Source: an uncultured Lachnospiraceae bacterium
Lineage (GTDB): Bacteria; Bacillota; Clostridia; Lachnospirales; Lachnospiraceae
NCBI GenBank assembly: GCA_947382355.1
Contig: CANCYR010000008.1
Coordinates: 1 to 64,000 of the forward strand
Length of the DNA: 64,000 nucleotides
Direction of reading: 5' to 3'
In this document: positions 40,638 through 46,315 of the stretch, piece after piece
How positions within the stretch are numbered: the first letter of the stretch is position 1
How the letters are laid out: each line of letters begins with the position of its first letter
Notes under the pieces: generated by a model
What the model saw: the letters and a program-made list of their open reading frames with translations, nothing else
What the model was told of the DNA's origin: nothing
The model's database searches: none
Position numbers and translations under genes: made by a program

Positions 40638-41105
40638 ATTGATTCCTCCTGACAATAAGTTTAAGATATATTTTTTATAGATTCTTATATACCATTATAA
40701 GCCATAAGTGGGGGAACATGCAAAAAAATCTTTATAAAAATTTGAAAATTTAAAAGAGTAAAACAAAACTGTTATTGCGAAATATTAGAAAGTATAATTT
40801 TCCCTTAAATTATTATTTTTGCAAAAATTATATTGCAGAATTTCGTGTTTTTGTGCTAAAATACAAAAAAGCATTCATATTCTAACTTTCCGGCAGCAAG
40901 CCGTATCTAATATCACTTCTGATAAGTCAAAGAACATCAATGCTTTTATTTACCAGGTAACAGGAAAAAGAAAAGCAGAGAGGTTTTTTGAGGATTTCGG
41001 AAGGGTACAGAAGCTTATGGGCATAAATTATGTACATAAGCCCGCTTACATCAGCTTTCAGACAGTCACGGAATAAAAAAGCCTCCTGCCCAAAGGAGGA
41101 AATGC
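40638..41105. other. Gene-free AT-rich stretch
   Basis: No supported gene. An 85-codon frame at 40819-41076 starts at TTG without a ribosome site and has no recognisable domain. At the right end, an anti-Shine-Dalgarno CCTCCT (41082-41087) faces the AGGAGG (41094-41099) of the next gene. Confidence 0.4.
41082..41099 (+). promoter_or_regulatory. Ribosome-binding site sequestered in a small hairpin
   Basis: CCTCCT (41082-41087), loop GCCCAA, AGGAGG (41094-41099), 6 bases before the ATG at 41106. Pairing would hide the ribosome site and lower translation of the Rpn-like gene. Confidence 0.55.
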
Positions 41106-41720
41106 ATGAAGAGGAAAGCTGACAGACACAAACAGGTACAGGAAATTTTCGGGGCACAGGAAGTAAAAAAAGGTTTTATAGACACCGATGGCAGCATGGG
41201 AACACATAGGACGGAAGATTACGTCCAGACCATCTGCAATGGTAAGGATACTGTATTCCGTATGCTTTACAAGGAAAAGGAAGAACTGAAAAGAAACTGT
41301 CCTACCCTGCGCCAGTACATGGAATACGTGGAGAGGGTGAGGACCTACACAGAACTGCTCCCCACAGGGGAAGCTATAAGGAAAGCAGTGGATGACTGCA
41401 TAAGGGAAGGCATCCTGAAAGAATTTTTAGTAAAGAATAAAGCGGAGGCGATACAGATGAGCATATTTGAGTATGATAAAGAACTGCACAAAAGGACACT
41501 GCGGGAAGAGGGCTATGAAGAAGGACTGGAGCAGGGAAAAAGTGAAGGAATAGTACAGGGAAAAAAGGAAGGAATTCTCGAAGTATTAGAAGAACTGGGA
41601 AGCATTCCGGAGGAAATAAAAAATAAAATCATATCCCAAAAGGATCTGAAGGTACTGGGTAAATGGCTTAAAATGGCGGCAAAAGCAGAATCTATAGAGC
41701 AGTTTCTGATTAATATGTGA
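41106..41720 (+). pseudogene. Internally deleted Rpn-family (PD-(D/E)XK) nuclease/transposase-like gene
   Basis: 204 codons in one frame. The N-terminal T-E-D-Y-V...K-D-T-V-F-R-M-L-Y-K-E-K-E-E-L matches the start of Rpn / PDDEXK-family transposase-like proteins, then the sequence jumps straight to their C-terminal part C-P-T-L-R-Q-Y-M-E-Y-V...A-V-D-D-C-I-R-E-G-I-L-K-E-F-L-V-K-N-K-A-E-A-I and the E-G-x-E-x-G repeats. The nuclease core (usually about 150 residues) is absent, so it cannot be catalytic. The frame stays open, so the deletion was in frame. It opens an accessory region. Confidence 0.75.
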
Positions 41721-41862
41721 TTATGGGCGAATATCAGGCTTTATCCAGCGGACAAAGAATTGTCTGATAAACATCTGAAAGAACATATTGATTTTTTAAG
41801 AAGAAAAGACGATATAAATATAAATGCACGGACGCATTTAAAATATACAAGGATGTGATTTT

Positions 41863-42447
41863 ATGAAAATTGGAGAAGCCCAGCAGATTTACAGGAATCA
41901 GGTAAAAGAATATCAGGAACAAAAGGCTGCTATATCAAAGCAGCTAAAGAATATCCGAAATCAGATGAAGCTTTCATCAGACAAACAGGAACAGTATCAA
42001 TCGGAAGCTGCCACGCTGGAACTGACTTTAAATGCCTTAGATGAAAAACAACAGGAATATTATGATTATTTAGAAAGGTTGGCAGACCAGTACTGTGCAT
42101 ACTGGAATGCCACAGTAGCGGAGCAGCAGGCAGATGCGGCTGAGGAGTATGCCATTGATATGGGGAAAATCATGGAAGTGGCACGCCGTATTATGAAAGG
42201 TGCAATCGTACCGGCAGCAGATGAAAAGAAGCTTATGGAATTCAGCTTTGAGATGTACCAGACCGCCAAAAATATAGGGGCAATGGCACAGCAGCAAAAG
42301 AAGGAGAAGTACGATTCTCTTTGGGGAGAGGAAGAGGAAAAGGAATATGACGATCCACGGGAAGTTGCAGAAAATGCAGAAGCCACAGCAGGCGCCCCGG
42401 AAATCGTTGAGGCTGTAGAAACAATTGCAGCAGTTCAAACAGAGTAA
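41863..42447 (+). CDS. Conserved coiled-coil protein of unknown function
   Basis: 194 residues, hydrophilic. Residues 1-70 form a long coiled coil (IYRNQVKEYQEQKAAISKQLKNIRNQMKL), followed by a helical domain (A-I-D-M-G-K-I-M-E-V-A-R-R-I-M-K-G-A-I-V-P) and an acidic, Ala-rich tail. Proteins like this occur in Lachnospiraceae near flagellar or cell-surface genes, but the function is unknown. The ATG at 41863 has AAGGATG upstream, and a strong terminator follows. Confidence 0.75.
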   Translation: MKIGEAQQIYRNQVKEYQEQKAAISKQLKNIRNQMKLSSDKQEQYQSEAATLELTLNALDEKQQEYYDYLERLADQYCAYWNATVAEQQADAAEEYAIDMGKIMEVARRIMKGAIVPAADEKKLMEFSFEMYQTAKNIGAMAQQQKKEKYDSLWGEEEEKEYDDPREVAENAEATAGAPEIVEAVETIAAVQTE

Positions 42448-42481
42448 TGGTTTAGCCAGCCGATTTTCCTACAGGTGCGGG

Positions 42482-42537
42482 GCAGGCTTGGAACTTAAGA
42501 AGTTATTTTCAGTTCCAAGCCTGCTCTGTTTTTTTTA
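42482..42537 (+). terminator. Terminator after the coiled-coil gene
   Basis: GCAGGCTTGGAACT (42482-42495) and AGTTCCAAGCCTGC (42511-42524) are a perfect 14-bp stem; TTTTTTTT at 42529-42536. Confidence 0.92.
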
Positions 42538-42609
42538 GGGAAAATAATAGTCTGAAAATTTGTAACATTGGGTTATTGGATTTCAAGCTTGTATAAAGGA
42601 GAAGATAGT

Positions 42610-42868
42610 CTGAAAAATACGGTTATTTTTGATTTGGACGGCTTGTTAATAAATTGCGAAATGATAACTTATCAATTATATCGTGACTTAATTGAAAAAT
42701 ATAATCAACACATATCACTGGAAGAATACGTTCATGATTATTGCGGGAATACAGGCGGCATATTCTGCCGGAATAGATGTAATCTGCATACCTGACATGA
42801 AAGCACCGGGAGAATTATTTCGTAAAATTGATGGTTTATACAGATATGTTTTGCTAAATCCATGGTAG
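42610..42868 (+). pseudogene. HAD hydrolase with large internal deletion and CTG in place of the start
   Basis: The N-terminal part L-K-N-T-V-I-F-D-L-D-G-L-L-I is the HAD motif I of beta-phosphoglucomutase-like phosphatases, starting from CTG at 42610 with AAGGAG 8 bases upstream. After about 43 codons the frame jumps to A-G-I-Q-A-A-Y-S-A-G-I-D-V-I-C-I-P-D-M-K-A-P-G-E-L-F, the family's C-terminal part, in another frame, ending at TAG 42866-42868. Motifs II and III are lost. It is a broken gene flanking the nuclease cassette. Confidence 0.82.
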
Positions 42869-42930
42869 ACCGAATGGTCGGATATACTCCTAAGTCTAAA
42901 GAATAATTTAATAATTTTTTTATTAAAAAC

Positions 42931-42959
42931 TTTACATAAAAATAAGAATGAGATAAAAT
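42931..42959 (+). promoter_or_regulatory. Putative promoter of the nuclease/AlbA cassette
   Basis: TTTACA (42931-42936), 17-base spacer, TAAAAT (42954-42959), 40 bases before the ATG at 43000. Confidence 0.65.
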
Positions 42960-42999
42960 GGGGAAAAGAAAATAGAAATGCAAATGAAACGGAGAAAAG

Positions 43000-44481
43000 A
43001 TGGAAAATATTATACGGCAATTAAAAAGTAAACTGAATCAGTTTGAGGATATTGATTTAACAGAGAGAACTTTAAGTAATAGAGTTATTATGTGGCTTTT
43101 AGAGGAATTTCTCGGATATGAACGGGATGATATGAAGTGGGAATCCCGGCTGCCATCCAAAGTGCAGAATTTATATGCAGACATCTTTATTGATGCCGGT
43201 GATGGTAAGAGGTTAATTATAGAAACGAAAAGGTATCAAAGCAAATTAGATAATGATGACTTCCTGCAATTAGATGGATATTTGAATAGAGAAAATGTTG
43301 AATGGGGTCTTATAACGAATGGCAGGGAATATTATCTTTTGAATCATGATATTCCTATTGATAGGCAATCGATGAGAAAAGCGGATATTACAGCTAAAAT
43401 TGTGATGAAAATAGAACTTGGTGAAGGTAGAAAAAAGGGGAAAAATGAAAAATATTTAAAATATCTTTCATATGAAAATTTATTTGAGAAGCAAACAACA
43501 AAATATTATAAATATATTGCTATATTTTTTAGCGGACATGAATTGTCTGGTAGTAGCAGGGAAAAATATGAAAATACATTATATAATTTTTTTGATTTTT
43601 ATATTGAAAAAGGCAATCCATATATTGAGTACAATAATGGTTTGCCACGTTCTTTGGCTGAAATTTCCGAAAAAGATGCAATTGAATTTTTAAAAGCAGA
43701 TCGGCCAGCAGGCAGGCCCTATTCTGGACAGGTTCCAAAAGCAAAATGTGCACATATTGCAACTATGTTTAAAAGAATGAAAGAAGAAGGATATACTAAT
43801 GAAAACAAAATGGAAAAATTGTTAGAGAGTGTGACAAAGGAATTTGAAAATATCGACAATAATAAAATAATAAAAAATAATTTATTGACAGCAGATAATG
43901 TCTGCTTAATTTTAAATCACTTAGAAGAAGGACGAAAACCAGTTAAAGTAGTTATATTTATACTGTGCGCTTATTATGGATTTGATAGAACTAAGATTAC
44001 TGATTTTCTGGCTTTAAAATGGAGTGAGGATATTGATTTAAAAAATTTCAGGTTTACATTGCATGGAAAAACTTATCCAATGGTAAAGAAGCTTGCAAAA
44101 TGTTTAGAAGAGATTCAACGGGAATATAAGAAAAAAGGGGTGAAAGCAAAATATATATACGTTACAAAAAAGGGAACAAAATATGTTCCTGTAAAAAAAG
44201 ATATTGTGAATACAGTTTTTGATGAGGATATAAAGAAAATTAAATGTGAAGATGAAAGATGGAATGCTTTGAATCCCCAAAATGTACGCGCCATGCTTAT
44301 TTTTAATATGTGTGAAAGTGGCTGTACTCTTGAAGATATATCATATATAACAGGAGCACCAGTTACGCAGATTTTGAGATATACTACCAATGAAATATTA
44401 GAAAAGACTGGAAAACAGTATTGGAAGAAGATGCGAAAGGCAGGAGAGACATATCATCCATTTAGGGAGATTTTTGAGTAA
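43000..44481 (+). CDS. PD-(D/E)XK nuclease (HsdR_N-like) fused to a degenerate tyrosine-recombinase-like domain
   Basis: 493 residues. Residues about 1-140 resemble the type I restriction HsdR N-terminal nuclease: Asp61 in Y-A-D-I-F-I-D, and Glu75-x-Lys77 in L-I-I-E-T-K-R, then the G-L-I-T-N-G-R-E-Y-Y-L-L end. From about 165 there is a SAM-like core-binding region (S-S-R-E-K-Y-E-N-T-L-Y-N-F-F-D-F-Y-I), and from about 300 an integrase-type catalytic fold: Arg330 in F-D-R-T-K-I-T-D-F-L-A-L-K-W, Arg430 in N-V-R-A-M-L-I-F-N-M-C-E-S-G, and Tyr461 in L-R-Y-T-T-N. The two usual His positions are Asn and Ala, so recombination activity is doubtful. Base composition is AT-rich compared with neighbours. 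In one operon with the next gene (29 bp gap). Confidence 0.72.
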   Translation: MENIIRQLKSKLNQFEDIDLTERTLSNRVIMWLLEEFLGYERDDMKWESRLPSKVQNLYADIFIDAGDGKRLIIETKRYQSKLDNDDFLQLDGYLNRENVEWGLITNGREYYLLNHDIPIDRQSMRKADITAKIVMKIELGEGRKKGKNEKYLKYLSYENLFEKQTTKYYKYIAIFFSGHELSGSSREKYENTLYNFFDFYIEKGNPYIEYNNGLPRSLAEISEKDAIEFLKADRPAGRPYSGQVPKAKCAHIATMFKRMKEEGYTNENKMEKLLESVTKEFENIDNNKIIKNNLLTADNVCLILNHLEEGRKPVKVVIFILCAYYGFDRTKITDFLALKWSEDIDLKNFRFTLHGKTYPMVKKLAKCLEEIQREYKKKGVKAKYIYVTKKGTKYVPVKKDIVNTVFDEDIKKIKCEDERWNALNPQNVRAMLIFNMCESGCTLEDISYITGAPVTQILRYTTNEILEKTGKQYWKKMRKAGETYHPFREIFE

Positions 44482-44510
44482 TAGAATTTAGAAATGCAGG
44501 AGGAAGATTC

Positions 44511-46064
44511 ATGATTCCACTAAAAATAGAGATATTGCTTGCCGGAAAGATTGTGGAGCAGAACCGTGTAGAGTATAAAGAAGGATGGAATCCAAATGAT
44601 ATTATTCATACAATCTGTGCTTTTGCCAATGATTATAATAATATGAATGGAGGGTATCTGGTAATTGGAGTACAGGCTAGGAATGGAATCCCGGTATTAC
44701 CTCCAAAAGGATTACCACTAACAGAGTTGGATTTCATACAGCAGGAAATATTTCAATATTGTAATCAAATCTATCCACGATATATTCCTAAGATAGAAGT
44801 TATTAACTATCAAAATTCAGGAAGATACTTAATATATTTATGGTGTACTGCTGGTGATAGTGGTCCATATCAGTCACCGGTTGATGTTTATGCAGAAAAA
44901 GGAAAGAAAGCTGATAAGAGAATGCAATATTGGATTCGGCCTTCATCATTAACGACAGGTGCTCATAAAGATGAACTTGCAGAATTATTCGATAAGTTTA
45001 ACTCAATACCATACGATGATCGCATAAATAGAAAAGCAAATATAAAAGATATTCGACGAGGCTACGTGGAAGACTTCCTTCGTGACAGTAACAGTACATT
45101 GTTAAATGATATCAATACAAGTACGCTGGAAGATTTACTTGTTTCCCTTGAGGTGGCAGATGAGACAGATGTGGAAATGAATATTCGTAATATTGGTGTT
45201 TTGATGTTTGCAGAGCGTCCGGACAAGCTGCTTCCTGGCGCACAGATTGATTTGGTTAGATTTAATACAAAAGATGAAGAAGGATCTGATGATTTTTTGG
45301 AAAAAACTTTTTATGGGCCTATATGGAAACAGGTAAGGGATTCTCTGGATTATATTAAAACCAATGTAATAGAGGAAAAGGTGGTTAAGATACAAGGTCG
45401 GGCAGAATCCGAAAGATATTTTAATTATCCATATAATGCGTTAGAAGAGGCGGTGGTTAATGCTGTATTTCACAAATCTTATCGGGAACCGGAACCGGTA
45501 GAAATACGAATTTATATAGACCGTATTATGATTATCAATTATCCGGGACTGGCAAAGTGGATAAATTTGGACAAATTTGTTTCAGGTAAGGCAAAGGCCC
45601 GCAAATATCGTAATCGAAGGATAGGTGAGTTATTTAAAGAAATTGATTTATCTGAGAAGCAGGGTACGGGTATTATAAAGATACTTAGAGAATTACAAAA
45701 AAATGGTTCTCCTGAGCCGGAATTTGAAATGGATGAAAACAGAACCTATTTGGCCACAACGATTTATATTCGGAATGGGTTTGTTCATAAAGAAATGTCC
45801 GAATCAATGTCCGAATCAATGTCCGAATCAATGTCCGAATCAATGTCCGAACTAGAACGGACCCGTATGAAGCCAATACTGGAATATTTAAATATGCATT
45901 CAGATATTAATAGCGCAATAGCTGCTAATGTGTTGGACATTCAGATAAAAACGGCGGCAAGACTGTTGGCAAAAGCTGAAAAAATTGGTATATTAGAAAG
46001 CAAAGGAAAAACAAAAAATAAGTTTTATGTATTAAAAAGAACTTGTGATACAAAAATGTTATAA
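44511..46064 (+). CDS. AlbA_2 (Schlafen-like) / HATPase_c_4 ATP-binding protein with MSES repeats
   Basis: 517 residues. Residues about 15-125 form an AlbA_2 domain (N-R-V-E-Y-K-E-G-W...I-C-A-F-A-N-D-Y...G-G-Y-L-V-I-G-V). A long linker leads to an HATPase_c_4-type module (N-A-L-E-E-A-V-V-N-A-V-F-H...I-D-R-I-M-I-I-N-Y-P-G...Y-R-N-R-R-I-G-E-L-F...G-T-G-I-I-K-I). A tandem M-S-E-S linker and a winged-helix end (MKPILEYLNMH...AANVLDIQIKTAARLLAKAEKIGIL) follow. Such proteins act as regulators or as parts of defence systems. It follows the nuclease-recombinase gene with AGGAGG upstream and shares its base composition. Confidence 0.82.
   Translation: MIPLKIEILLAGKIVEQNRVEYKEGWNPNDIIHTICAFANDYNNMNGGYLVIGVQARNGIPVLPPKGLPLTELDFIQQEIFQYCNQIYPRYIPKIEVINYQNSGRYLIYLWCTAGDSGPYQSPVDVYAEKGKKADKRMQYWIRPSSLTTGAHKDELAELFDKFNSIPYDDRINRKANIKDIRRGYVEDFLRDSNSTLLNDINTSTLEDLLVSLEVADETDVEMNIRNIGVLMFAERPDKLLPGAQIDLVRFNTKDEEGSDDFLEKTFYGPIWKQVRDSLDYIKTNVIEEKVVKIQGRAESERYFNYPYNALEEAVVNAVFHKSYREPEPVEIRIYIDRIMIINYPGLAKWINLDKFVSGKAKARKYRNRRIGELFKEIDLSEKQGTGIIKILRELQKNGSPEPEFEMDENRTYLATTIYIRNGFVHKEMSESMSESMSESMSESMSELERTRMKPILEYLNMHSDINSAIAANVLDIQIKTAARLLAKAEKIGILESKGKTKNKFYVLKRTCDTKML
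45796..45851 (+). repeat. 12-bp tandem repeat encoding MSES
   Basis: ATGTCCGAATCA occurs four times in a row from 45796, followed by a partial fifth unit ATGTCCGAA. The unit is a multiple of 3, so repeat-number change would lengthen or shorten the linker without a frameshift. Confidence 0.9.
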
Positions 46065-46078
46065 ACGGTTAATTATGA

Positions 46079-46131
46079 AAGGACTGTTGTAAAAGTAGAT
46101 TATTCACCTATTTTTGCAGCAGCCCCTTTTT
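46079..46131 (+). terminator. Terminator of the cassette
   Basis: AAGGACTGTTGTAAAAGTAG pairs, with several G-T pairs, with CTATTTTTGCAGCAGCCCC, then TTTTTA. Confidence 0.75.
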
Positions 46132-46315
46132 ATTTTCAATTGCAGGAGAAAGGCAGTAAAAAAGCTTTATGGAAAAACTGTGCCCACTGTCAGATGAAAT
46201 TATCTTTGAGAGATAAACTTCTTTCTGCAATCCTCAAATTTCTATCACATTCCTAATATAAAGTAATAAAAGTAGAAAAGTGTAATTTTACAAAGAATTA
46301 TGACGGAGGAAAAAA

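Follow-up and report, generated by a model that had tools for sequence, protein, structure and literature searches.

The window analysed here, a stretch of 64,000 nucleotides from a contig of an uncultured Lachnospiraceae bacterium, carries a two-gene cassette on its forward strand. Gene 1 (43000..44481, +) encodes a 493-aa fusion of a nuclease with a tyrosine-recombinase fold, as delineated by its open reading frame, Pfam, and a seven-member family, and gene 2 (44511..46064, +) encodes a 517-aa protein with SLFN_AlbA_2, HATPase_c_4, and a C-terminal winged-helix-like region, as delineated by its open reading frame, Pfam, and homologues. The gap between the two is 29 bp, each is preceded by a ribosome-binding site, and gene 2 is probably co-transcribed with gene 1. 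A long hairpin with a T-run lies 3' of gene 2 (46077..46130, +; -22.3 kcal/mol, z -5.9) and is a probable terminator, in agreement with a sequence-only reading that preceded this work. That reading had also proposed a private promoter. A promoter-like hexamer pair, TTTACA-17-TAAAAT, is present ahead of gene 1 (42931..42959, +), but the region is no richer in such sites than shuffled sequence (19 observed around gene 1 versus 19.0 in shuffles, with no excess over chance). The low GC content that it had pointed out is clear from comparison with neighbours, at 30.8% in gene 1 and 35.5% in gene 2 versus 43% in the downstream neighbour gene, with GC3 values of 0.25 and 0.29 versus 0.39-0.49 in neighbouring genes. 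Inspection of the open reading frames elsewhere in the window revealed no other recognised defence genes.

Alignment of the flanks with a congener (L067) places the cassette in a variable slot (42436..46210), because the flanks are shared and the contents differ. Gene order is the same on both sides, with DNA identity of 87% up to 42435 and 78% from 46211, and the congener carries an ABC-transporter operon where the window has genes 1 and 2. Together with the low GC, this arrangement bears out the suggestion that the cassette was transferred. Close to its left edge lie the terminator hairpin of the upstream gene (42482..42524, +) and the remnant of a HAD-family gene (42568..42868, +), which matches HAD_2 positions 1-44 of 178 in one frame, has a HAD-like tail in another frame (recognised by eye, without a Pfam match of its own), and has lost most of its middle; broken genes had been pointed out on this side by the sequence-only reading. 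Further to the left, the open reading frame at 41106-41720 has no solid Pfam match and looks by eye like a truncated Rpn/transposase-type remnant, and the stretch that holds it (40755-41776) has no counterpart in the congener.

The N-terminal half of gene 1 contains an HSDR_N_2 PD-(D/E)XK nuclease domain (residues 34-117; 43099..43350, +; Pfam E 1.1e-9, above the cut-off), a match found in six of the seven family members. In the family alignment, Asp61, Glu75, and Lys77 (codons 43180-43182, 43222-43224, and 43228-43230, +) are in register with the D...(D/E)xK nuclease motif, which upholds the earlier assignment of an HsdR_N-like nuclease with exactly these residues. The triad is kept in 6/7 members, that of the window included; Lys77 is missing in the closest relative, L028, and nuclease activity may therefore not extend to the whole family. 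The nuclease half has low pLDDT and gives weak Foldseek matches to RecU, Hjc, and NucS (E 0.07-0.4). Its domain and D...ExK motif are the same as those of restriction-modification HSDR_N_2 nucleases, but gene 1 differs from these in having no helicase, methyltransferase, or specificity subunit within the gene or adjoining it in the window, where the HsdR helicase, HsdM, and HsdS that make up a type I restriction-modification system are absent from gene 1 and its neighbours alike.

The second half of gene 1 consists of a complete tyrosine-recombinase fold, with core-binding and catalytic-type domains (residues about 165-481; 43492..44442, +). The Phage_integrase match at residues 296-452 (Pfam E 1.9e-5) falls 2 bits below the curated cut-off and recurs in six of the seven members, while the family profile matches the archaeal XerA-type recombinase 4a8e with E 2.4e-6 (hmmsearch), XerA being the sole clear PDB sequence match of gene 1. 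In an AlphaFold model of modest confidence (mean pLDDT 60, pTM 0.40, block means 71-86 at residues 301-390), residues 167-481 match recombinases across both domains, with XerA 5hxy at Z 14.5, Tn1549 integrase (Int) at Z 13.6, and Cre at Z about 12.5. The presence of an integrase fold in this half had been named beforehand as a test of the fusion, and both the sequence profile and the structure model recover it. XerA/XerC-type recombinases are the closest in fold, from which gene 1 differs by its extra N-terminal nuclease and its non-conserved catalytic residues.

With the catalytic register taken from 4a8e, the gene 1 family lacks the conserved recombinase set R, K, H, R, H/W, Y. The Arg I position holds an acidic residue, with an invariant Arg one residue later in 7/7 members (Arg330 in the window; 43987-43989, +), and the His of HxxR is Gln or Lys across the family (Gln427 in the window). 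Arg II is Arg430 (44287-44289, +), replaced by Lys in L029 and L030; the third His/Trp position holds Ala, Ile, or Asn-region residues (Ala453 in the window); and the nucleophile is Tyr461 (44380-44382, +), replaced by Leu in L032 and L033. Both catalytic His are missing in all seven, and Arg II and Tyr are both in place in the window and in L028. The sequence-only reading, according to which two Arg and the Tyr were kept and Asn and Ala stood at the His positions, was right about Arg430, Tyr461, and Ala453, but its other Arg falls one residue late and the HxxR His is Gln, not Asn.

Because catalytic residues have been lost or shifted across the family, a functional recombinase is unlikely as a shared role, and the alignment suggests that the C-terminal half of gene 1 is unlikely still to recombine, its recombinase chemistry not being conserved among relatives. 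The position of the cassette in a variable slot, and the retention of Arg430 and Tyr461 in the window and in L028, would nevertheless suit an active tyrosine recombinase or nickase, in which Arg330, Arg430, and Tyr461 still catalyse strand breakage and rejoining, with gene 1 moving the cassette or acting on recombination intermediates jointly with its nuclease. We regard this as very improbable, given the absence of both His and the displacement of Arg330 in every member, the loss of Arg II and of Tyr in others, and a search of the cassette's surroundings for terminal repeats or att-like ends that gave nothing beyond chance-like matches. Moreover, in MrpR, a recombinase fold turned repressor, recombinase function is reported to be lost even though the Tyr and Lys are kept (PMC10516654).

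A recombinase fold that no longer recombines would not be peculiar to gene 1. Fold matches of the model also include SroF (9rd5, Z 12.3, rmsd 5.4 over 267 residues) and MrpR/YopR (Z 10.7), SPbeta-group phage repressors that, like gene 1, have the complete core-binding and catalytic-type fold and have lost the His; the SroF-antirepressor complex 9rgl is among the matches as well. The Tyr of MrpR is required for DNA binding (PMC10516654), and a Tyr kept in most members, as well as a presumed capacity to bind DNA without recombining it, is common to the gene 1 family and to MrpR/SroF. However, MrpR and SroF are phage repressors, MrpR being made of two recombinase-fold domains alone, whereas gene 1 lies on the chromosome, carries a nuclease domain in addition, and has relatives in defence loci. 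A second likeness, which we propose, is with TnsF of Tn6022-type Tn7-like transposons, an inactive recombinase serving as target selector (PMC10293859), whose inactivated tyrosine-recombinase domain picks the DNA target for another enzyme; TnsF partners transposition proteins and has zinc fingers, where gene 1 has a nuclease domain instead.

The repressor matches, and the antirepressor complex in particular, also lend themselves to a different explanation, namely that gene 1 is a sensor acting by abortive infection. Perhaps its SroF/MrpR-like half senses a phage product (e.g., an antirepressor) and frees an indiscriminate nuclease, which kills the infected cell. No methyltransferase adjoins gene 1 in the window to protect self-DNA, which favours such a sensor and counts against a targeted nuclease, since the latter would have to spare the host's own DNA; and L028, with its dead nuclease, could still serve as a regulator. 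On the other hand, the repressors are equalled or outscored by XerA, Tn1549 Int, and Cre, so that the fold in itself does not point to a repressor, and the sensor would be one without a known phage partner protein. We therefore consider a sensor role unlikely.

The gene 1 family is rare, with seven sequences in five independent contexts, window included. Scanning 84,980 species genomes produced the six loci outside the window, all of which belong to Lachnospiraceae or unclassified Eubacteriales records; identity to gene 1 in the alignment is 38% for L028, 28% for L029/L030, 26% for L031 (Roseburia hominis), and 26% for L032/L033. Two samples, each of about 400 genomes from the family and the order, yielded one relative apiece. 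The genome of the window has a single copy of gene 1, five of five congeners have none, and searches of phages, plasmids, and viral contigs found no copy. Among 484 class and phylum genomes, the search for the fusion outside Lachnospiraceae gave single-domain matches only, the window's own genome aside; open frames of 271 and 193 aa from other families of the class (L073, L074) match the nuclease half alone. Neither PADLOC nor NCBIfam provides a family name for gene 1, and no paper naming an HSDR_N-recombinase fusion was found in the searched literature, outside which most subscription journals lie. Matches of gene 1 to AbiEii (PADLOC, E 0.006) and TcaR were weak and were taken as chance.

In closely related pairs, dN/dS is 0.04 (L029/L030) and 0.17 (L032/L033) and similar over both halves, which places gene 1 under purifying selection. 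The open reading frame is full-length in all seven members, and the architecture is common to all at 22-38% identity. With dN/dS so far below 1, it is extremely improbable that the locus is ordinary accessory DNA in decay, its nuclease-integrase fusion having arisen by chance and serving no function today, even though gene 1 is rare and remnants of other genes lie close by.

The neighbourhoods of gene 1 relatives point consistently to defence, as the sequence-only reading had supposed; every relative found bears this out. PADLOC-recognised defence genes occur in 4/4 independent contexts outside the window, which is strong evidence although it is a raw count from a small sample; the lack of any further recognised defence gene in the window locus counts against the link. 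L028 lies near type I HsdM and HsdS, an AlbA_2-HATPase gene, and a PDC-S06 ATPase; L029 and L030 lie near a MutH-like protein and type II methyltransferases; L031 lies near AbiEi/AbiEii, a second AbiEi, and an integrase; and the relatives in L032 and L033 immediately follow Wadjet JetBCD and a GIY-YIG gene, the one in L033 also adjoining an Abi_2/AbiD gene. This GIY-YIG gene (L032:6940-7521) is situated between jetD and the gene 1 homologue, and it is kept in L033.

Gene 1 is thus probably a narrowly distributed, previously undescribed defence-candidate nuclease with a repurposed recombinase fold. We give about an even chance to the explanation that it is a defence-type, restriction-like nuclease using this fold to select its DNA targets. 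The C-terminal half, in this view descended from a tyrosine recombinase and no longer recombining, would be a clamp specific for some sequence or structure in mobile DNA entering the cell, and its binding would place the N-terminal PD-(D/E)XK nuclease on that DNA, leading to cutting and to a putative anti-phage or anti-plasmid function. It is tempting, if more doubtful, to go a step further and suggest that a retired tyrosine recombinase, once a reader of attachment sites for mobile elements, now targets a nuclease against such elements and so provides a new kind of restriction-like immunity. If this explanation is true, gene 1 would add an unlisted family to the known defence nucleases, absent from PADLOC, and would show host immunity capturing integrase folds as targeting devices, in parallel with the repressor MrpR and the target selector TnsF. 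Because recombinase folds read defined sites, the target of gene 1 would be directly testable.

The second protein is, as predicted, an AlbA_2 protein with an HATPase-like module, with SLFN_AlbA_2 at 44556-44897 (+; Pfam 1.5e-11) and HATPase_c_4 at 45495-45746 (+; Pfam 8e-15). A tandem repeat with a 12-bp unit, in frame and encoding (MSES)n, lies in the linker ahead of the C-terminal region (45794..45853, +), and its copy number could differ between strains without a frameshift. Gene 2 is alike over its whole length to AlbA_2-HATPase-wHTH accessory proteins, which are widespread accessory genes and which we take to be of the COG2865 type. In PADLOC, only the shared-domain parts of pAgo models match it. 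Of 299 genomes from the family, about ten carry homologues at 56-72% identity, and clear defence systems were found at 5 of the 13 homologue loci examined: the homologue lies between HsdM and HsdS in L061, between HsdS and HsdR in L070 (37% identity), on the same strand and directly downstream of a SIR2-APAZ-type Argonaute gene (SIR2-pAgo) in L058 (71%; L058:3391-8180), and next to PbeC/MzaA in L062 and Hachiman HamA/HamB in L065. AlbA_2 genes have previously been reported in pAgo operons (PMC6299218). At the other loci no recognised system is clear, and several of the copies there are broken.

Since its homologues sit with different defence systems, gene 2 looks less like an obligate partner of gene 1 than like a promiscuous, mobile accessory taken up by one defence operon or another, a pattern that its place behind gene 1 also fits. 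The sequence-only reading had treated the two genes as a fixed pair, which did not survive comparison: gene 2 is adjacent to gene 1 at no other gene 1 locus, gene 1 occurs at 0/13 gene 2 loci, and the placement downstream of gene 1, by which gene 2 differs from other AlbA_2-HATPase-wHTH genes, was not seen elsewhere. These counts make it quite improbable that the two proteins form an obligate system with the HATPase protein as the gate of the gene 1 nuclease, despite the 29-bp spacing, the common strand, the low GC of both genes, and a distant AlbA_2-HATPase gene (22% identity) upstream of the gene 1 relative in L028. The pair is indeed rare, a result that had been named, in conjunction with a lack of linkage to defence or mobile loci, as one that would count against a defence cassette; this objection fails because each gene is separately linked to defence. 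As an exchangeable component of defence operons, with AlbA_2 nucleic-acid-binding, HATPase, and winged-helix parts, gene 2 would most likely have a regulatory or modulating role and not belong to the cutting machinery. At a further locus (L057:1682-6828), a gene 2 homologue has as neighbours another AlbA_2 gene and a protein of 726 aa with no Pfam or PADLOC match and a nuclease-like ELKK stretch, possibly an undescribed system.
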